In this document: positions 3,863-14,500 of the stretch, piece by piece | Layout: the number at the start of each line of letters is the position of its first letter | Numbering within the stretch: the first letter of the stretch is position 1 | IMG/VR virus record: IMGVR_UViG_3300037086_000072 | Location: 1-26,127 of that record | DNA: 26,127 bases | DNA from: a virus | Direction: 5' to 3' (one strand) | Notes under the pieces: model-generated | The model's input: the letters and a program-made list of their open reading frames with translations, nothing else | What the model was told of the DNA's origin: nothing | Databases searched by the model: none | Position numbers and translations under genes: made by a program

Positions 3863-4341
3863 CCGCCCGCCGCACGCCCCCCTCCGTCCCCCTCCCGAGC
3901 GACTGCGAGCCGCAGAAGCCCCACGGCTCCCGCAACTGCGAGCGCCGCTACCCAGACCCCCAAACCCTCTGCGACGCCCGACCCGCAACCCCCGACGAGT
4001 CCGCCGAGTTCCGCCGCCTCGCATCCCAAACCCGCCCGCTCAACCCGCACCCCGGAGAGGATCGGGTCAAACGCCTGGCCCACCAACTCGCCAAGGCAGA
4101 GGCCACGCTGCATGGCTGGCCCGCTACCAGGGCCGCCAGGGCCTCGCAGGCACCACACGGGCAACCCAAGGCACCCCGGGTCCTCTCGCGCAGCCTGGGG
4201 CCTCCTGGCGCGGAAATGCGGCTGCCCTTCCCCGTGCTGCCGATCGACCATCCGGCCGTGCGCGGGCTGACCACGCTGGTAGTGCTACCCCTGACCCGCA
4301 CCGTGGCGGACCGGGATGAAGACATCGGCGTGGCGTCATAG
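3859..4341 (+). CDS. Hypothetical basic Pro/Arg-rich protein, 160 aa
   Basis: The ATG at 3859 overlaps the preceding stop (ATGA) and has GGAGG seven bases upstream. The N-terminal half is low-complexity (Pro, Arg, Ala) with three cysteines around residues 15-40; a helix DRVKRLAHQLAKAEATLHGW lies in the middle; the C-terminal third (LPFPVLPIDHPAVRGLTTLVVLPL) is more ordered. The frames on both strands are open over long stretches because of composition, so some uncertainty remains about the true frame; this one is favoured by its ribosome site and coupling. No family was recognised. It is the last gene before the packaging module. Confidence 0.5.
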   Translation: MTARRTPPSVPLPSDCEPQKPHGSRNCERRYPDPQTLCDARPATPDESAEFRRLASQTRPLNPHPGEDRVKRLAHQLAKAEATLHGWPATRAARASQAPHGQPKAPRVLSRSLGPPGAEMRLPFPVLPIDHPAVRGLTTLVVLPLTRTVADRDEDIGVAS

Positions 4342-4374: not shown

Positions 4375-4728
4375 ATGCAGACGAAGCCGAAAAAACCGGC
4401 ACCGAGTTCAGCGTGGAAGAAGGGCCAGAGCGGAAACCCGGGAGGCCGGAAGCCGATCCCACGGGACGTGCTCGAAATGGCGCGCGCCGCGTGCCCAGAG
4501 GCTGTGCAGCGTCTCGTCACGGCCATGCGCGAGGACTGCGGAAAGGTTGCCGTCACAGCCGCCGTCGCCCTGCTCAACCGCGCCTATGGTGCGCCGACGC
4601 AGCCACTCACGGGCGCCGACGGTGCGCCGCTGATCCCGCCGCGGCCGGACCTCTCGCGTCTCACGTCCGAGGAGTTGGCCGTCTACGTCGCTCTCGCGGA
4701 GAAGACCGCCCGTGGCGCTGCCCGCTGA
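4375..4728 (+). CDS. Terminase small subunit-like, DUF5681
   Basis: 117 residues. Residues 13-27 carry the diagnostic WKKGQSGNPGGRKP signature of DUF5681 proteins, which sit immediately before large terminase genes in many phages. A helical DNA-binding-type segment follows (residues 30-75, VLEMARAACPEAVQRLVTAM onward). The small subunit recognises the packaging site and stimulates the large subunit. The end overlaps the start of the large subunit gene by 17 bases, which indicates coupling. The role is inferred from the signature and from position; a direct helix-turn-helix assignment was not possible by eye. Confidence 0.8.
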   Translation: MQTKPKKPAPSSAWKKGQSGNPGGRKPIPRDVLEMARAACPEAVQRLVTAMREDCGKVAVTAAVALLNRAYGAPTQPLTGADGAPLIPPRPDLSRLTSEELAVYVALAEKTARGAAR

Positions 4729-6262
4729 CCTGCCGCCGCTCGACGTGGACGAGGGGCACGCAGAGGAGTGCAGGCGCTCCTTCGCAGCGTTCGTCAGGAG
4801 GGCATGGCCGCTGGCCGGCACGACGGAGCCGCTCATCTGGGGCTGGCACCTCGACGCGCTGTGCTCTCACATCCAAGCCGTCGAGGAAGGCCAGATCCGC
4901 AAGTTGTTGATCAACATCGCACCGGGTATGGGGAAGTCGAAACTCGTGTCGGTGCTCTATCCTGCGTGGTCGTGGACGCGCACGCCGACGCGGCAATTTC
5001 TCTGCGCCTCGTACGCCTACGATCTCGCCGAACGCGACTCGGTTTACTGTCGCCAGTTGGTGGAGTCGGAGTGGTACACGCGGCTGTTCATGCACGGCGA
5101 CTGGCGGCTGAAGCCGGATCAGAACACCAAGAGTTTCTGGTCCAACACCGTCGAGGGGCATCGGATTTCAACGGGCGTGGGGGGGACTGGAAAGCGCGCC
5201 GACCGCATCGTGATCGATGACCCATTGTCTGCCGTCGATGCTCACAGCAAGGCGGCGCGCGAGACGGCAATAGGGTGGATCGGCCAGACTCTCGTGACGC
5301 GGTTCAACGACCAGGCGACGAGCGGCATGGTGATGATCATGCAGCGGCTCCACGAGGAAGACCCGTCTGCGTTCGTTCTGGCCGGCGGGGACTGGGAGCA
5401 TCTTTGCTTGCCGTCGGAGTTCGAGTCTGACCGACGGTGCGTCACCTATCGCAGCGTCAAGGTGCCCGCCAACGGAACGCCGGCGCACGTCGAGCGGGAA
5501 GAGTTCTGGCGCGACCCGCGCACGGTGCCCGGGGAGTTGTTGTTCCCCGAGAAGTTCCCTCAGTCGGTGCTCGACGATGCGAAGCGGCCCAACGCCCTCG
5601 GGGCCTACGGCTTCGCCGGGCAGCATCAACAGCGGCCCTCCCCGGCCGGCGGGGGCATGTTCCGCGCGGAGGACTGGCGCTTCTGGAAGCCCGACGGGAC
5701 GGCTGCTAGCGTCTCTCCTCGCCCCGCCGGCTGCTACGATGGGCCAGCTCGCCCGCTCCCCGAGTTGGACAGCGTGATCATCTCCGTTGACGCGAACTTC
5801 AAGGCGAAGGCCACCGCCGACCCGGTGGCGATGCTGGTCATCGGTTCGTCAGGCGCCGACCGTTTCATCCTGGACCGCCGGTGGGGGCCGTTCGGCTTCG
5901 CTCGGTCGGTGTCCATCCTGCGCGATCTCGTTGCCGCGTGGCCGGCGGTGTCCAAGGTGCTCGTCGAGGACGCGGCTAACGGATCGGCCATCATCGAGTC
6001 GCTGCAACGGGAAATCGTGGGTATCGTCGCCGTGAAGCCAGAGGGCGGCAAGGAGTCGCGGGCGTGGGCGGTGCAAGCGCAGGTGGAAGCTGGGCAGTGC
6101 TACCTGCCAGACGGCGCGCCGTGGCTGGGCGAGTTCATCGAGGAGTTTTCGGCGTTCCCCAAGGGCAGACACGACGATCAAGTCGACGCCTGGAGCCAGG
6201 GCCTGCTTGAACTGCGCCACCCGCTTGGGGTGCTAGACGCATGGGCGCGGGTAACTGGCTAG
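4712..6262 (+). CDS. terL: Terminase large subunit
   Basis: 516 residues. This is the DNA-packaging motor. The ATPase half has Walker A NIAPGMGKS at 68-76 and Walker B RIVIDDP at 165-171, with a GVGGTGKRAD loop just before it. The nuclease half is RNase H-like: VDANFK with Asp360, LVEDAANG with Glu419/Asp420, and HDDQVDA at 487-493 with Asp488/Asp489/Asp492. These match the Terminase_6C type (phage uncharacterised C-terminal domain family). It cuts concatemers and drives DNA through the portal encoded next. The GTG start at 4712 overlaps the small subunit gene. Length and motifs are complete. Confidence 0.95.
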   Translation: MALPADLPPLDVDEGHAEECRRSFAAFVRRAWPLAGTTEPLIWGWHLDALCSHIQAVEEGQIRKLLINIAPGMGKSKLVSVLYPAWSWTRTPTRQFLCASYAYDLAERDSVYCRQLVESEWYTRLFMHGDWRLKPDQNTKSFWSNTVEGHRISTGVGGTGKRADRIVIDDPLSAVDAHSKAARETAIGWIGQTLVTRFNDQATSGMVMIMQRLHEEDPSAFVLAGGDWEHLCLPSEFESDRRCVTYRSVKVPANGTPAHVEREEFWRDPRTVPGELLFPEKFPQSVLDDAKRPNALGAYGFAGQHQQRPSPAGGGMFRAEDWRFWKPDGTAASVSPRPAGCYDGPARPLPELDSVIISVDANFKAKATADPVAMLVIGSSGADRFILDRRWGPFGFARSVSILRDLVAAWPAVSKVLVEDAANGSAIIESLQREIVGIVAVKPEGGKESRAWAVQAQVEAGQCYLPDGAPWLGEFIEEFSAFPKGRHDDQVDAWSQGLLELRHPLGVLDAWARVTG

Positions 6263-6294: not shown

Positions 6295-8325
6295 ATGCTC
6301 GTTGACTCAAGCGGCCGTCCCATCGCAACCGGGCGCGAGGCTGCGCCCGACCCTATCGACGGCTACGTTCCGCGGACGGACGACGGCTTCTCGCCGGGGC
6401 TGATCGCGCAGATCAAGGCCGACGTGGCGCAGGTGCAGCAGACACGGGCGGACCAGTCGGCGGGCGTCGAGGTGCCGCACATGGACGCGGCGTGGGCGCA
6501 AGGCGTGGAACTCGACGGCTACGTCAACGAGGTCAGCGGCCTCGGCGTGCTCGGCTATGACAAGACGCTGGGCACCGGGCCCACGGGCGTCTCGTTCGCC
6601 GTCCACCGCTTCTCGGGCATCGAGGCCGAGATGCGGATCCGGGGCTCCGACCTAGGCAACCGGATCGTGTCGGTCATCCCCGACGAGATGACGCGCGAAG
6701 GCTGGGACCTCCAGGTGCAGCCGACGGACGAAGCCGAGGCGGACGCGCTGGAACCGCGCCAGCAGCTCGACGCGAGCATGAAGGCCCCGCGACGCGCGGC
6801 GGCCGGATGGCGGCAGATGGCCAAGGCGACGATGGACCGCGGCCGGCGGATGGACGCGCTCAGGAACGCGGCGCGGTGGGATGCGTTCGGCGCTCCCGGG
6901 GCGCCGATGATGGCCGGCCCGCCGCCGGCGCCCCCGCCTCCCGGGCCGCTGCCTCACCTGTCCGACGAGGGCATCGAACTGTCCGAGGCCATGACCGACC
7001 GCATGGACAAGCTCGACCTGCTGGGCGCCGTCAACCAGGCGCTGCGGTACGAGCGGGCCTTTGGCGGCGGGGCGATCATGATCGGTGCCGACGATGGGGC
7101 AACGGACCTGACGCAGCCGCTCGACGAGAAGAACGTCAAGAGCATCCAGCATCTCACGCCGTACTTCGGCGGCTACGACGGTGAGGTGGTCGCGTGGCGC
7201 TGGTACGCTGACCCGCGCAAGCCGCTGTACGGCCAGCCCGAGGTCTACCAACTCCGCAACTTGGGAGTGCCGATCTCGCGCCCGCCGGCACCGGGCGAGA
7301 CGCATCCGACGCCGACGATCCTGCCCACCGGACCAGGCGGCCCCTACGTCTGGTACGTCCACGAGTCGCGGCTGCTCTTGTTCCCGGGCGACGCGCCGAC
7401 GCGCCGGACCCGGGTCGAGATGCGCGGATGGGGCGATAGCGTGTTCACCAGGGCCGATCAGGTGCTCTCGCAGTTCGATCAGTCGTGGTCGGGGCTCGCC
7501 ATCCTGCTGCAAGAACTCAGCGTGGCGACGCTGAAGATCAAGAACCTCGCCGTCACGCTGGCCGACCCGAAGAAGAAGGGCGTCGTGCTGGAGCGCGCGC
7601 GGCAGATCGCCATCTCCAAGAGCATCGCCAGGATCGCGCTCCTCGACTCCGAGGAAGAATTTGGGCGCGTGACGGCTTCGCTCGCCGGCGCGCCGGAACT
7701 CATGGGGCAGTTCCTTCTGCGCCTGGCCGGCGCCGTCGACATGCCCGTCTCTCTCCTCGTCGGGCAGGTGCAGGGAGGCCTGGGGAACACGGGCAACACC
7801 GACGTCCGATTCTTCTACGACAAGATCAAGTCTTACATCGCCCGCCGGCTCATCCCGAGGGTGTTGAAGATCTACCGGCTAGCCTGGCTGGCCAAGGACT
7901 CGCCCACGCGCGGCGTGCTGCCCGAGCGCTGGTCCATCGTGCCGCGTGAACTCTGGCAACTCACGGCCAGCGAGACGGCCACGCTTCGGGAGACCTACGC
8001 GAAGATCGACGCCTCGAACATCACGGCGGGGATCTACTCGCCCGAGGAGGCGGCGGCTTCGCGGTACGGCGGCGCCGAGTTCGGGACCGAGATCGTGCTC
8101 GACATCGAAGGGCGCAACGCGCTCGCGGCGAAGGAAGAGGAGGAGCGCAAGGCGGCGCCCCCGCCCGAACAGGTACAGCCGACTCCCACGCCTGCGGCCA
8201 AGGCGCCAGACGGGACTGGCAGCGTGACGACGATCCCGGCGATGCACGCCATGCCCGTTGACCCGATCTCGGGCGACCCGCAGGGCACGCCGTCCACAGT
8301 GGCAGAGCCTCCCAAGGAGAAGTAG
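6295..8325 (+). CDS. Portal protein, DUF1073
   Basis: 676 residues. The core (about 105-620) matches DUF1073 portals: DLGNRIVSVIPDEMTREGWD, then ALRYERAFGGGAIMIGADDG, FDQSWSGLAILLQELSVATL, and SLLVGQVQGGLGNTGNTDVRFFYDKI. The protein forms the twelve-fold ring at the head vertex through which terminase packages DNA and to which MuF protein and neck attach. Residues 1-100 are an acidic extension, and the last 60 residues are Pro/Ala/Glu-rich and probably disordered. A Pro-rich insert, PPPAPPPPGP, lies near 205-216. The ATG has GGAGG six bases upstream. The MuF-type gene follows three bases after the stop, the usual order. Confidence 0.92.
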   Translation: MLVDSSGRPIATGREAAPDPIDGYVPRTDDGFSPGLIAQIKADVAQVQQTRADQSAGVEVPHMDAAWAQGVELDGYVNEVSGLGVLGYDKTLGTGPTGVSFAVHRFSGIEAEMRIRGSDLGNRIVSVIPDEMTREGWDLQVQPTDEAEADALEPRQQLDASMKAPRRAAAGWRQMAKATMDRGRRMDALRNAARWDAFGAPGAPMMAGPPPAPPPPGPLPHLSDEGIELSEAMTDRMDKLDLLGAVNQALRYERAFGGGAIMIGADDGATDLTQPLDEKNVKSIQHLTPYFGGYDGEVVAWRWYADPRKPLYGQPEVYQLRNLGVPISRPPAPGETHPTPTILPTGPGGPYVWYVHESRLLLFPGDAPTRRTRVEMRGWGDSVFTRADQVLSQFDQSWSGLAILLQELSVATLKIKNLAVTLADPKKKGVVLERARQIAISKSIARIALLDSEEEFGRVTASLAGAPELMGQFLLRLAGAVDMPVSLLVGQVQGGLGNTGNTDVRFFYDKIKSYIARRLIPRVLKIYRLAWLAKDSPTRGVLPERWSIVPRELWQLTASETATLRETYAKIDASNITAGIYSPEEAAASRYGGAEFGTEIVLDIEGRNALAAKEEEERKAAPPPEQVQPTPTPAAKAPDGTGSVTTIPAMHAMPVDPISGDPQGTPSTVAEPPKEK

Positions 8326-8328
8326 CCC

Positions 8329-10068
8329 ATGCCGCTCCGCGCGACGAACATCCGCCGCACGCGCGCCCTCATCCGCCAGTGGCGCGCCCTGGCTCCCCGG
8401 CGCAAGCGCGGGCGTCTGCCACGGCAGCAACAGCCCGACCAACTGCGCCGGGAATACTGGCGCGCGATCCTGCCGATCTGCCGCCGGGCGCGCGATATGG
8501 TGGCCCCGGTCATCGAGGAGATCCTGGCCGAGTTGCGCGCGCACCGGCCAGAGCAAGACGCAGCCGAGCCGCCGCCGGCCGAGGTGGGCACCTACGGCGC
8601 GCTTCTCGCCGAGATCATGGTCCAGGCCGAGAAGTGCGGCGCCGCGGTGCGGACCTACGGCACCACGGCTGCCGGGCCGCTGGTCTGCGTCGAGGTAGAG
8701 GGGCCGCGCGCGGTGGTCATCGTCACGGGGCAGCATGGCGAGGAGCAGGCCGGCCCGCGCATGGTGGCCAGGTTCCTGCCGGCGCTCGCGGCGCGCGCGC
8801 GTTCGCGGGGTCTCGGGCTGCGCGTCTATCCGTGCGTCAACCCCGAAGGCTTCAACTCGGGCACCAGGCGGGACCGCAAGGGCGACACGCGAGCCAACGC
8901 CTTCCTCGACTACATGGTCGGCGGTGCGTGGGTCGGCGAGCTCCAACCGGGGCAGGTGGCAACGGCCACCCGCCGTCCGGCGCAGGCTCCCGAGACGCGG
9001 GCGCTGTACGACGACCTCGTGCCGTGGGCCTCGACGCATCCCGTGGCCGCGCTGGTAGACCTGCACCAAGACGCCTGCCTTCGCCCCGGCTACGCCTTCG
9101 CTTACGTGACCAAGACATGCCGAGACGTGGCCGCGCGCGCGCTTGCCCGTGCTGCTCTCCCCTACGCCTCTCGCAAGCTCGCCAACGCCTCTTGGTCCAA
9201 GGTCGCGCTACGCACCGGCCCTGACGGATGCTGCCTGCTCGAGGACGGCTCCATCACGGCATGGGCCGACCACGCGGGCATCCCGATCAGCGTCGCGCTC
9301 GAGGTGGACCTCTGGGACGTGCCATCCGCAGCGCGCGTCCACCGGGCGTTCGTCTGCGGCATCCTCGATGCTGCGTCGCAGCAAGCCGAGGGACACGCCG
9401 ACGCCGGAGGCGGGGGCATGGGCGGCCGGCAGGCGGCGCACGAAATCCGGCGCGTGGCCGAGAAGTTCGCCGCGACGCTCAAGACCAGCGCGATCGCAGA
9501 CGTGGCCGCGCAGTTCGGCAAGCGCACCGCGGACTGGCAGAAGGGGCAACTCGACGCGCAGGTCCGCGCTGCGTTCGGCGTCCAGTACGAGGCCATCGAG
9601 CAGCCGACGCGCGACCGCGTGCCCGGGTTCGTCGCGGAGAACGTGGCGCTGATCGTGACCGTTCCCGAGAGATACCTAGAGCGCGTGGCCGTCGACGTCG
9701 AGGACGCCTACGCCTCGGGCATGCACCCCTCGACGCTCGCCGAGGACCTGCAAGACGACTACGACATGAGCGAGCGGGACGCCATGCGGATCGCTCGGGA
9801 CCAAGTGTCAAAGCTCAATGCCGCCGTGAATCAGGATCGCCTGGAGTCGCTGGGTGTCACCGAATACTACTGGCGGTGCAGCAACGATAACAGGGTCCGC
9901 GACAACCACCAGGCGCTCGATGGGCAGCGGTGTTCATGGGCTGATCCACCGATGGGCGGCGGCACAGGCCCAGACGACACGGGCAATGCAGGGGAAGGAA
10001 TTTGCTGCCGCTGTTTTTGCGAGGGAATCCTCGACGATCTTCTCGGCACCCCCGACGAGGCCGAGTGA
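8329..10068 (+). CDS. MuF head morphogenesis protein with inserted M14 carboxypeptidase domain
   Basis: 579 residues in one uninterrupted frame. Residues 1-95 (very basic, then helical) and 360-579 together look like a complete MuF/SPP1 gp7-type minor head protein. The latter part carries AHEIRRVAEKFAATL, RIARDQVSKLN, YWRCSNDNRVRDNHQALDG (ending near 540) and a Cys-rich CCRC tail. Between them, about 105-345, sits an M14 zinc carboxypeptidase/deacylase-like domain: zinc ligands His136 and Glu139 in QHGEEQ, NPEG at 171-174, an Arg/Asp/Asn segment at 180-190 resembling the substrate-binding DxNR region, the third ligand His246 in DLHQD, and the catalytic Glu325 in LEVDLW. All key residues are kept, so an active enzyme is predicted. 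AAGGAG lies 10-15 bases upstream of the ATG. A few MuF proteins normally enter the head with the portal; delivery of a peptidase with the DNA is inference. Confidence 0.85.
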   Translation: MPLRATNIRRTRALIRQWRALAPRRKRGRLPRQQQPDQLRREYWRAILPICRRARDMVAPVIEEILAELRAHRPEQDAAEPPPAEVGTYGALLAEIMVQAEKCGAAVRTYGTTAAGPLVCVEVEGPRAVVIVTGQHGEEQAGPRMVARFLPALAARARSRGLGLRVYPCVNPEGFNSGTRRDRKGDTRANAFLDYMVGGAWVGELQPGQVATATRRPAQAPETRALYDDLVPWASTHPVAALVDLHQDACLRPGYAFAYVTKTCRDVAARALARAALPYASRKLANASWSKVALRTGPDGCCLLEDGSITAWADHAGIPISVALEVDLWDVPSAARVHRAFVCGILDAASQQAEGHADAGGGGMGGRQAAHEIRRVAEKFAATLKTSAIADVAAQFGKRTADWQKGQLDAQVRAAFGVQYEAIEQPTRDRVPGFVAENVALIVTVPERYLERVAVDVEDAYASGMHPSTLAEDLQDDYDMSERDAMRIARDQVSKLNAAVNQDRLESLGVTEYYWRCSNDNRVRDNHQALDGQRCSWADPPMGGGTGPDDTGNAGEGICCRCFCEGILDDLLGTPDEAE

Positions 10069-10283
10069 CGAACCCGCGTCCCGAGCACGTGCTACTCGCC
10101 GCGGACGCTGCCCGCTGGACGAAGGGTTCCCCGCCGGTGGTGTGCGAGGTGACGACGGAGCGCGGCCATTTCCAGATCACGATCAAGCGTGGCCACCCGT
10201 CCCTGCTGTTCAACGGGGTACTCATCGCCACCCACCGCTGCTGGCTTGCGCCGCTCATGCGCACCGCGGCAGTGCTCTGGTAG
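10065..10283 (+). CDS. Hypothetical protein, 72 aa
   Basis: The GTG at 10065 overlaps the stop of the MuF gene (GTGA), so it is translationally coupled. The protein is small and basic. CEVTTERGHFQITIKRGHPSLLFNGVL suggests alternating beta strands, followed by a hydrophobic CWLAPLMRTAAVLW end that is too short and too charged to be a confident membrane segment. No family was recognised. A longer version starting at 10002 runs inside the MuF gene and is not supported by a ribosome site. Its place in the head cluster suggests a virion or assembly role, but nothing proves it. Confidence 0.55.
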   Translation: MTNPRPEHVLLAADAARWTKGSPPVVCEVTTERGHFQITIKRGHPSLLFNGVLIATHRCWLAPLMRTAAVLW

Positions 10284-10980: not shown

Positions 10981-12594
10981 ATGGCCAAGCCAGCCGACAA
11001 GCCGATTCCGCCCGCGCCAGTGCCGCCGGACGCAGTGCAGCCATCACCGCCCGCGCCAGTGGCCACGCCGACCGAGGACGAGGCGCCGCACGTTGACGCC
11101 GCGCCCATCATGCGCCGCGCCGTCATGCACTACGACCTGGCCACGCTCGCACCGCCCGAGAGGCTGGCCAACGGCTTCCTCCGCGCCCAGGGCAGGATCG
11201 CCCGCATCGGCCCGCAGGTCTACGTCGACGTGGACGGCAAGCAGCACACCGAACTCAGGCTTCCCGAGGACGTGTTCGACGCGGCCAGCCTGCACTCCTT
11301 CGCCATGGTCCCCTTGACCAACGGTCACCCGCCCGTGCTGCTCGATGCGACGAACTCCAAGGCGTACCAGGTCGGCTCGCTCGGCGAGCATTTGACGCAC
11401 GACGAGGAGCACGTGATCGCGCCGCTCATGGTGACAGACAAGGTGGCGATCGACGCCATCGAGCGCGGGCGCCAGCAACTCTCGAACGGTTATCAGTGCG
11501 ACCTGGACCCGACGCAGGCGCCGGACCTGATCGCCAAGTGGGGGCCGTACGACTTCATCCAGCGGAACATCCGCGGCAACCACGTGGCGCTCGTGGACGT
11601 GGCCCGCGCTGGTCCGACCGCCGCGCTCCGGTTGGACGGTGGTGCAGAAACCATGCAATCCGTGATAGCCTTTCAGGCAACCAAGGAGAATCCGATGCCC
11701 GTGAAGATCAAGATTGCCGGACGCGAGATCGAAGTTCTCGACGGCACCGCCGCGACCGTGCAGTCCATGGTCGACGAGCAGCAGGTCAAGCTCGACGCCG
11801 CGCTGGCGACCATCGCCCGCGTCAAGGGCGCCACCGCGAAGCTCCGCGCCTCGGTCACCGCCCGCGCCGACGCCATGAAGGCCCGCATGATGGGCTGCGA
11901 CGAGTGCGGCGGGTCAGGCAAGATCGCTGGCGACGCCGGCGCCGAGAAGCCCTGCGAGTACTGCCACGGCAAGGGCTCCGTGCGCATGCACGACGCCATC
12001 AAGGGCGCCCCGGCCCCGGTCGAGGAAGCCCCGGACGCCGACGAACCGGTCGAGGACGCCGTGACGGAGATCGAAGTGGCGCAGGCCACCGAGGAAGAGG
12101 CCGGCAAGGCGCACAAGGACCAGGCGGCCCGCAAGGTGACCCGCGAGCAGGCGCGCAAGGACGAGGCGGCCCGCGTGCCCGCGCTGCGTCAGGCGCGGCT
12201 GGACAGCTACGATCGCATGGCCAAGCGGCGCTCGGCCGCCCGCGACGCGCTCGTCTCGCTGGCCCGCAAGGTGCTCGGCGCCGACGAGAATCTCGACAGC
12301 AAGACCGACGCCGAGGTGGTGGCCATGACCATCGCCAAGCGGTTCCCGGACCTGAAGCTCGACGGCCGCAGCGCCGACTACATCCGCGCGCGCTTCGACG
12401 CCGCGGTCGAGTCGCCGGCCCCGGCCGCGCCCGCGCTGTCGGCCATCGACGCCGCCCGCGCCGGCATGAAGCCGACCCCGGCCACGCAGGCGGCCCCCCG
12501 CGGCACCCGCGCCGCGCTCGAGCAGTCCAGGGTGGCCTTCGCCAAGTCGCGCTCCGACGCCTGGAAGCCGGCGCCGGTGGAGGCAAAGAAGTAG
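10981..12594 (+). CDS. DUF2213 prohead protease fused to scaffold-like region
   Basis: 537 residues. Residues 1-42 are Pro/Ala-rich. Residues 43-230 match DUF2213, the phage prohead protease-like family: RRAVMHYDLATL, TNGHPP with His116, SNGYQCD with Ser168, and NHVALVDVARAG. His116 and Ser168 are candidate catalytic residues (inference). Residues 239-537 are helical, charged and Ala-rich, like an assembly scaffold, with a DnaJ-type zinc motif, CDECGGSG at 306-313 and CEYCHGKG at 325-332, and a long KARKVTREQARKDEAARV-type coil. The TAG of the previous gene is three bases upstream; no clear ribosome site is visible, so coupling is likely. A nested start produces the scaffold half alone. Confidence 0.85.
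   Translation: MAKPADKPIPPAPVPPDAVQPSPPAPVATPTEDEAPHVDAAPIMRRAVMHYDLATLAPPERLANGFLRAQGRIARIGPQVYVDVDGKQHTELRLPEDVFDAASLHSFAMVPLTNGHPPVLLDATNSKAYQVGSLGEHLTHDEEHVIAPLMVTDKVAIDAIERGRQQLSNGYQCDLDPTQAPDLIAKWGPYDFIQRNIRGNHVALVDVARAGPTAALRLDGGAETMQSVIAFQATKENPMPVKIKIAGREIEVLDGTAATVQSMVDEQQVKLDAALATIARVKGATAKLRASVTARADAMKARMMGCDECGGSGKIAGDAGAEKPCEYCHGKGSVRMHDAIKGAPAPVEEAPDADEPVEDAVTEIEVAQATEEEAGKAHKDQAARKVTREQARKDEAARVPALRQARLDSYDRMAKRRSAARDALVSLARKVLGADENLDSKTDAEVVAMTIAKRFPDLKLDGRSADYIRARFDAAVESPAPAAPALSAIDAARAGMKPTPATQAAPRGTRAALEQSRVAFAKSRSDAWKPAPVEAKK
11663..11688 (+). promoter_or_regulatory. Internal promoter and ribosome site for nested scaffold
   Basis: Inside the protease gene lie TG-a-TAGCCT at 11663-11671 (start site near 11678) and AAGGAG at 11683-11688, seven bases ahead of the in-frame ATG at 11695. 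Neither element is needed for the full-length protein. Confidence 0.55.
11695..12594 (+). CDS. Nested scaffold protein, 299 aa
   Basis: In-frame internal start of the protease gene. The product begins MPVKIKIAGREIEVL, has a coiled segment at its residues 20-60, then the paired CxxCxGxG zinc motif (about residues 68-94), an acidic linker, and a long Ala/Arg/Lys/Glu helical region. A strong AAGGAG and a matching extended -10 box precede it. Lambda C/Nu3 has the same logic: one gene makes a protease with a scaffold tail and, in excess, the scaffold alone. The scaffold would fill the prohead and be digested by the attached protease; this is inferred. Confidence 0.6.
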   Translation: MPVKIKIAGREIEVLDGTAATVQSMVDEQQVKLDAALATIARVKGATAKLRASVTARADAMKARMMGCDECGGSGKIAGDAGAEKPCEYCHGKGSVRMHDAIKGAPAPVEEAPDADEPVEDAVTEIEVAQATEEEAGKAHKDQAARKVTREQARKDEAARVPALRQARLDSYDRMAKRRSAARDALVSLARKVLGADENLDSKTDAEVVAMTIAKRFPDLKLDGRSADYIRARFDAAVESPAPAAPALSAIDAARAGMKPTPATQAAPRGTRAALEQSRVAFAKSRSDAWKPAPVEAKK

Positions 12595-13444: not shown

Positions 13445-14500
13445 ATGGGCCGAACGGTGTTTCGCGCAGACAGCACCAACCATTTCGCCGAGCGCTACCT
13501 CCCGCCCCAGTGGCGGGCGGAGACCGGCTTCAACCCGCGGTACGACGCGGCCGAGACGGTGTTCGTCGAGCGCGCGCTGCTCGAGATCGAGGCGCAGCCC
13601 TACAACACGCTGATCCCGCCGCTCAAGAGCCGCAAGTTCATCCCGACGGACAACACCAGCCACGCCGGCGCGAAGTTCACCGGCTACCGGCGCTACACCC
13701 GCACGGGAGTCGCGCGCCTGATCACCGAGTCGGGCCTGGACCTGCCGACCGTGGGCGTGTTTGTCCAGGAGGACATCCATCAGTTCTACTGCGTGGCCGC
13801 TGCCTACCAGTACAGCTACCTGGACCTCCTCGCCATCGGCTTCGCGCTCCAGAACGGCCAGAGCATCAACCTCGACCTCGAGCTGAGCATCGCAGCGCGC
13901 GAGGCCATCGAGAAGAAGCTCGACCTCATCGCGGCGTGGGGCTCGGCCTCGGCCGGCACCTTCGCGCTGGAGAACGAGGAGGACGTGGGTTTGCTGGGCC
14001 TGATCAACCTGACCAGCGCCCTCTCCTACACCCCGGCCGCCGGAGACTCGGGGCACACCGACTGGGCGCGCAAGACGCCCGACGAAGTGCTGGCCGACCT
14101 GAACGGGATCGTCGCCTACCAGGTGAACTCGACGTACGAGGTTCACCGGCCGGACACCATCCTGGTCCCGACCCTGCAGTACGAGGGGCAGCTCACCCGC
14201 TCGATGGGTGACGGCCGCAGCGACACGATCCTGAGCTACTTCATGCGGACCCACCGCGAGAGCGGGAACCCGATCGACGTGCAGAGCTGGCCGTACCTGG
14301 CCGGCGCTGGCGCTGGCGCCGCGGACATGATGATCGCGTTCAAGCGCGACCCCCGCATGATCCGCCACATGATCAGCATGGAGGCCACCGCCCTGCCCCA
14401 GCAGCAGGAGGGCCTCGTGATCACCGTGCCGCTCATCGCCAAGACCGCGGGCGTCGTGGCACCCTATCCCCTCTCGATCGTTAGGGGAATCGGAATTTGA
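13445..14500 (+). CDS. Major capsid protein, DUF2184
   Basis: 351 residues. The sequence matches DUF2184 capsid proteins throughout: FAERYLPPQW near the start, PQYN-like QPYNTLIPPLKSRKFIP, FTGYRRYTRTGVARLITESG, QYSYLDLLAIGFALQNGQSINL, LGLINL, and the C-terminal ALPQQQEGLVITVPLIAKTAGVV. These proteins adopt the HK97 fold and build the icosahedral shell. AGAGGAG lies a few bases before the ATG. It follows the protease, scaffold and cement genes in the usual order. No delta-domain is attached, consistent with a separate scaffold. Confidence 0.93.
   Translation: MGRTVFRADSTNHFAERYLPPQWRAETGFNPRYDAAETVFVERALLEIEAQPYNTLIPPLKSRKFIPTDNTSHAGAKFTGYRRYTRTGVARLITESGLDLPTVGVFVQEDIHQFYCVAAAYQYSYLDLLAIGFALQNGQSINLDLELSIAAREAIEKKLDLIAAWGSASAGTFALENEEDVGLLGLINLTSALSYTPAAGDSGHTDWARKTPDEVLADLNGIVAYQVNSTYEVHRPDTILVPTLQYEGQLTRSMGDGRSDTILSYFMRTHRESGNPIDVQSWPYLAGAGAGAADMMIAFKRDPRMIRHMISMEATALPQQQEGLVITVPLIAKTAGVVAPYPLSIVRGIGI

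Follow-up and report, generated by a model that had tools for sequence, protein, structure and literature searches.

The locus analyzed here raises the question of how a zinc hydrolase of the M14 fold comes to lie inside a phage head protein, and what such an enzyme would do there. Tailed phages may load effectors into their heads by way of MuF proteins, the known route for such cargo, and the effectors described so far are C-terminal. Short and C-terminally extended forms are the two major MuF architectures (Jamet et al., 2017; PMC5576092); the effectors of MuF polymorphic toxins are C-terminal, about 20% of these toxins carry a metallopeptidase, and injection with the DNA has been proposed for MuF proteins with C-terminal toxins (PMC5576092). 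In phage SPP1, the MuF protein gp7 is bound to the portal, reaches the procapsid interior in few copies and supports the start of infection; only about 25% of the virions that form without it are infectious (PMC6316719).

The MuF protein considered here is encoded in a GC-rich 26 kb fragment of an uncultured bacterial virus, IMGVR_UViG_3300037086_000072. The whole stretch that was analyzed, 26,127 nucleotides in length, is hereinafter called the window.

The MuF gene and its neighborhood

As stated in the original prediction, positions 8329-10068 of the forward strand form one continuous open frame, which encodes 579 amino acids (63 kDa) and starts with an ATG preceded by a strong AAGGAG ribosome site. 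The portal frame ends at 8325, directly upstream of the MuF start at 8329, and neck and tail sheath genes follow further downstream of the major capsid gene; given the encoded tail sheath protein, the phage is assigned to the contractile-tailed viruses. The relevant features of the window are as follows.

4712-6262, forward strand: terminase large subunit (PF17289, phrog_38)
6295-8325, forward strand: portal protein, immediately 5' of the MuF-M14 gene (PF06381, E = 6e-52; phrog_146)
8329-8553, forward strand: N-terminal MuF arm, residues 1-75 (HMM match at residues 24-62; alignment)
8569-9396, forward strand: inserted, predicted M14-fold zinc hydrolase domain, residues ~81-356 (Pfam, AlphaFold, Foldseek, VIA)
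9403-10065, forward strand: MuF core, residues 359-579 (PF04233 and phrog_324, head morphogenesis)
10065-10283, forward strand: 72-residue frame with a GTG start, overlapping the MuF stop codon (GTGA); coding-like, GC3 0.88
10981-12594, forward strand: DUF2213 head-maturation protease, a separate gene (PF09979, E = 7e-37; phrog_530, E = 1.5e-76)
13445-14500: major capsid protein

The 72-residue frame, possibly an accessory gene or one of the immunity type, matched no PHROG or Pfam family, and no relative of it was found. A PADLOC search yielded no defense-related match.

The position of the gene within the head cluster invites the idea, included in the original prediction, that the enzyme processes head proteins during prohead maturation. 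The phage, however, encodes a dedicated maturation protease of the DUF2213 family, which makes such a role unlikely for the insert; moreover, M14 enzymes of the branch to which the insert belongs are exo-acting or attack small amides and are not endoproteases. This explanation therefore appears highly improbable. The DUF2213 protease itself contains a DnaJ-type CxxCxGxG zinc-finger segment (CDECGGSGK...CEYCHGKG; residues 306-338, window positions 11896-11994), for which the match to the Pfam DnaJ_CXXCXGXG family (E = 5e-4) is below the cut-off.

Position and authenticity of the insertion

The C-terminal part of the protein is readily identified as a MuF core: PF04233 matches residues 453-563 (E = 2.3e-18; 67.4 bits against a cut-off of 29.6), TIGR01641 scores 58.4 bits against a cut-off of 39.65, and PHROG_324 extends over residues 369-571 (E = 3.3e-50). 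For the N-terminal part, MuF relatives were taken from 80 related loci in IMG/VR. Residues 24-75 align with the N-termini of the closest relatives, and an HMM built from the N-termini of the relatives matches residues 24-62 with a score that none of 2000 shuffled sequences attained. The distance between Y43 and Q407 is 365 residues in the protein as it stands and 91 once residues 83-356 are removed, as compared to 75-108 in the 57 aligned relatives that are long enough for comparison (three partial rows have less). Because a MuF-type N-terminus precedes the enzyme and its excision restores the spacing typical of the family, the enzyme can be placed within the head protein, between the N-terminal arm and the core, in agreement with the original claim of two MuF halves. 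By these sequence comparisons, the M14-fold enzyme is shown to be inserted in frame into a loop of the MuF N-terminal helical region, one that is short in the 57 aligned relatives. The protein ends shortly after the core (the PF04233 match ends at residue 563 of 579), so that the enzyme lies N-terminal to the core and not C-terminal to it as do the effectors of MuF polymorphic toxins. An AlphaFold model of the whole protein, computed from the single sequence, had a pLDDT of 37.

A short duplicated DNA repeat bounding the insert was considered and rejected: the best match scored 8.0, with a shuffle mean of 7.6. As a separate observation, an intein-like segment (PF14890, E = 1.5e-6, below the cut-off) interrupts the MuF protein of Aggregatibacter phage S1249 (L004, 2393-4666) where the conserved NCRC motif lies; this is another internal MuF insertion, of the self-splicing kind.

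The window derives from a metagenomic contig, so an assembly chimera or a frameshift error that joined two genes has to be considered. An identical MuF-M14 protein is, however, encoded in a fen-derived contig, PMZR01000001.1, which was binned with an Acidobacteria MAG; the two records are 99.99% identical over 8552 bp, with one mismatch and the same insert junctions, which makes a chimera of one assembly unlikely. Yet they differ elsewhere: 80 bases of the window upstream of the gene (positions 4254-4333) are missing from PMZR01000001.1. Both junctions are in frame and within one loop, excision gives back the family length, and the codon use and GC3 of the insert are those of the flanking MuF parts. 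An artifactual join is thus scarcely credible. The two records represent one phage type, not independent fusions, and may share reads.

The search for other MuF proteins with the same insertion returned only this identical protein. About 140 other MuF loci (86 from phages or viral contigs and 60 from prophages, the latter drawn from 754 genomes belonging to two proteobacterial classes) yielded no M14 domain. In 396 genomes of the phylum of the Acidobacteria MAG, no second MuF-M14 protein was found, with weak M14-region matches only. Similarly, a tblastn search of annotated phages and plasmids with the insert and single-protein scans of viral contigs produced no match. No published counterpart of a MuF protein with an internal M14 domain was found either, and, to our knowledge, this architecture is undescribed, as the original prediction surmised for an internal hydrolase.

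Fold, active site and relatives of the inserted enzyme

Two Pfam families match the insert above their cut-offs: AstE_AspA_cat (PF24827), by a narrow pass, with 25.8 bits for the full protein and 28.4 bits for the insert against 25, and Peptidase_M14 (PF00246), with 22.4 bits for the insert against 21.6. In a phmmer search of the PDB, the insert matches 2qvp (E = 1.6e-6), along with 3b2y and 3ieh, all from Shewanella. When the insert was folded with an alignment that included 28 relatives from viral and bacterial contigs, the AlphaFold model had a pLDDT of 82.7 and a pTM of 0.84. The best PDB match of this model in Foldseek is 2qvp (E = 3.6e-13), with the murein tripeptide amidase MpaA (4axv) also among the matches; VIA gives Z scores of 25.3 for REP34, 25.0 for 2qvp and 22.6 for carboxypeptidase A4 (CPA4), and the PDB neighbors listed for the model are M14 enzymes. 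By its predicted structure, then, the insert has the M14 fold.

Conservation of the active site was counted in an L-INS-i alignment of 47 homologues, and the residues named in the original prediction (H136, E139, N171-P-E-G174, R188-A-N190, H246 and E325) are located where it put them.

8734-8745, forward strand: HGEE, with zinc ligands His136 and Glu139 (His in 46/47 homologues, Glu in 46/47)
8839-8850, forward strand: NPEG motif, residues 171-174 (P in 46/47, G in 47/47)
8890-8898, forward strand: R188-A189-N190, replacing the canonical N-R clamp for the substrate carboxylate (N in 44/47, R in 40/47)
9064-9066, forward strand: His246, third zinc ligand (46/47)
9301-9303, forward strand: Glu325, catalytic base (45/47)

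The HxxE and His zinc ligands and the catalytic glutamate, which are characteristic of the M14/AstE-AspA superfamily, are thus all present in the alignment, the catalytic set (His136/Glu139, His246, Glu325) being conserved in 45-46 of the 47 homologues. Given that these residues are intact, the insert is probably an active enzyme. M14 carboxypeptidases proper grip the substrate carboxylate with an N-R pair (N144-R145 in CPA). In two alignments, A189-N190 occupies these positions; R188 could substitute for the missing pair. In the absence of N-R, "carboxypeptidase" is not a safe label for the insert. Accordingly, the part of the original prediction that concerns the M14 fold and the zinc site stands, whereas the carboxypeptidase assignment does not, AstE/AspA and deacetylase matches being better.

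SO_3749, an N-acetylornithine deacetylase of Shewanella (PMC3219624), is the closest characterized relative by family model, although the insert cannot be assigned to that type because its score in NF052223 (N-acetylornithine deacetylase, Shewanella type) is 28-30 bits, far below the equivalog cut-off of 400. Judging from these matches, the insert is nearer to N-acyl-amino-acid deacylases than to carboxypeptidases. Of the two activities put forward in the original prediction, peptidoglycan peptidase and amino-acid deacylase, the deacylases are thus the closer by family; a peptidoglycan role is possible, with weaker sequence support. Under the latter, the M14 domain would be virion-associated and trim stem peptides in the envelope during DNA entry, in the manner of MpaA or of virion-associated lysins. 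This explanation gains from the presence of MpaA among the Foldseek matches, from a weak match to the NCBIfam MpaA model (NF007897, E = 0.003-0.015) and from the fact that the fold-matching phage proteins include some annotated as carboxypeptidases or peptidases (Bacillus phage Moonbeam, Clostridium phage phi24R). The MpaA score, however, is far below the equivalog cut-off (14-16.5 against 157 bits), the carboxylate-binding N-R pair is absent, the closest characterized relatives are cytosolic amino-acid deacylases (PMC3219624), and a protein located inside the head is badly placed for periplasmic action. On balance, we consider this explanation unlikely.

The closest enzyme relative of the insert (35% identity over 240 residues, E = 2e-36) is L138, a HAD-M14 gene of phage IMGVR_UViG_3300032053_000032. 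L138 has P-T-N where the insert has R188-A189-N190, that is, T-N in the N-R columns, and the two enzymes share the loop N[AS]FL[DE]Y..-GA-WVGE..PG.VA. They pair in the tree with support of 99/97, subject to a long-branch warning, and on sequence grounds we take them to form a distinct M14 branch. The loss of N-R and the unusual shared loop suggest that the substrate of this branch is likely to differ from those of ordinary M14 carboxypeptidases. The L138 gene lies at the end of its 85,027-base contig and crosses the contig joint; an exact 127-base repeat shared by the two contig ends suggests that the genome is circular and about 84.9 kb long, whereas IMG/VR classes the record as linear. The product has 413 residues and a HAD-like N-terminus, and stops just past the M14 domain. 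An SPP1-type portal gene is found upstream and, after a few genes, a weak but recognizable MuF gene downstream. Since L138 sits between portal and MuF, the enzyme branch appears to belong to the portal/MuF locus in two unlike phages.

In the circular phage that carries this sister enzyme (G397; L142, 1896-4363), the portal-MuF interval also holds a fusion of an AMP-binding ligase with a methyltransferase and a MaoC-like gene; together these may constitute a small cassette for modification or biosynthesis. A third M14 gene, from the wider group, is located ~3 kb upstream of a terminase gene (L139). A tblastn search of annotated phages with the sister enzyme gave one weak match only (E = 0.02), and two pattern scans, for the shared loop and the motifs, identified no contig beyond that of L138. 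Free-standing M14 or acetylornithine-deacetylase-like genes are also present on viral contigs without a recognizable MuF gene (L008, L009, L010, L011, L012); these are possible auxiliary metabolic genes.

The sister enzyme bears on a further alternative, namely that the insert is cargo that does nothing in the host. Whether or not it is catalytically active, it could be retained to plug or space the head structure, or it could have been inserted recently and be neutral. The insertion was found in one phage lineage only, and N-R, which is among the most conserved motifs of the family, has changed. The catalytic residues and the open frame, however, are retained and the codon use is native; moreover, the same altered motif recurs in the sister enzyme, in the same neighborhood of an unrelated phage, a recurrence more in keeping with an enzyme in use than with one in decay. 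We regard this alternative as quite unlikely.

Proposed role and comparison with known systems

The best explanation, to which we assign a probability of roughly 55%, is that the phage encodes a MuF protein with an M14-fold zinc amidohydrolase in its N-terminal loop, which is loaded at the portal, delivered with the DNA and acts in the new host. Specifically, the MuF part would bind the portal and bring a few copies into the capsid, as in SPP1 gp7; the enzyme would then exit with the DNA and act in the newly infected cell, where it would most likely cleave a small molecule or peptide at an amide or N-acyl bond. Loading at the portal and delivery are probable by analogy with SPP1 gp7, with the MuF toxins, and with the protein that best matches the MuF core among GenBank phages (L002), which carries a C-terminal ADP-ribosyltransferase (PF03496, E = 4e-18). 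Ejection with the DNA is plausible from the precedent of SPP1 gp7, and the insert most likely serves as a virion-loaded effector, its internal position being new. In favor of this explanation, we count the single frame, the MuF parts on both sides, the M14 fold, the conserved catalytic residues, the native codon use, the second record, the L138 locus and the effector-carrying MuF relatives; against it, we count the occurrence of the fusion in only two near-identical records, the C-terminal location of known MuF effectors, the pLDDT of 37 for the whole protein and the 26 kb length of the fragment.

More tentatively, and less likely than not, the N-terminal loop of MuF might be a second, previously unrecognized cargo site besides the C-terminal position. 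In this view, the loop here holds the first member of a phage branch of M14-fold amidohydrolases whose substrate clamp has changed and which otherwise has its own gene between portal and MuF; the enzyme would be loaded at the portal and, at an early stage of infection, act on a small molecule or peptide of the host. If true, an enzyme in the N-terminal loop would represent a second way of loading cargo beside the portal, and enzyme packaging in phage heads could naturally be modeled on it. The location of L138 between portal and MuF shows that the branch recurs at this locus, so that its substrate and the gain to the phage at entry become testable.

Among known systems, the free-standing Shewanella proteins 2qvp, 3b2y and 3ieh and the N-acetylornithine deacetylase type are the best fold and sequence match and have the same zinc site and catalytic glutamate, but they keep the N-R motif, which the fused insert lacks. 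The M14 proteins of Bacillus phage Moonbeam (carboxypeptidase) and Clostridium phage phi24R (zinc carboxypeptidase) are likewise phage-encoded and of the M14 fold but only about 14-15% identical to the insert by fold alignment, and we know of no MuF fusion in either. L138 combines the altered motif and the WVGE..PG loop with a place in the portal-MuF interval, as does the insert, but is a free-standing gene with a HAD-like N-terminal domain, whereas the insert is fused within MuF. SPP1 gp7 and Mu gpF (PF04233) share with the present protein the MuF core and the gene position right after the portal, and portal binding and a location in the head interior are presumed here; these proteins are, however, single-domain, whereas here an enzyme interrupts the N-terminal region. 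The MuF polymorphic toxins similarly combine MuF with an enzymatic domain and have a small frame after the gene, as in the window, but their effector is C-terminal, whereas in the present protein the enzymatic domain is internal and of the M14 fold, and the chain ends just past the MuF core.
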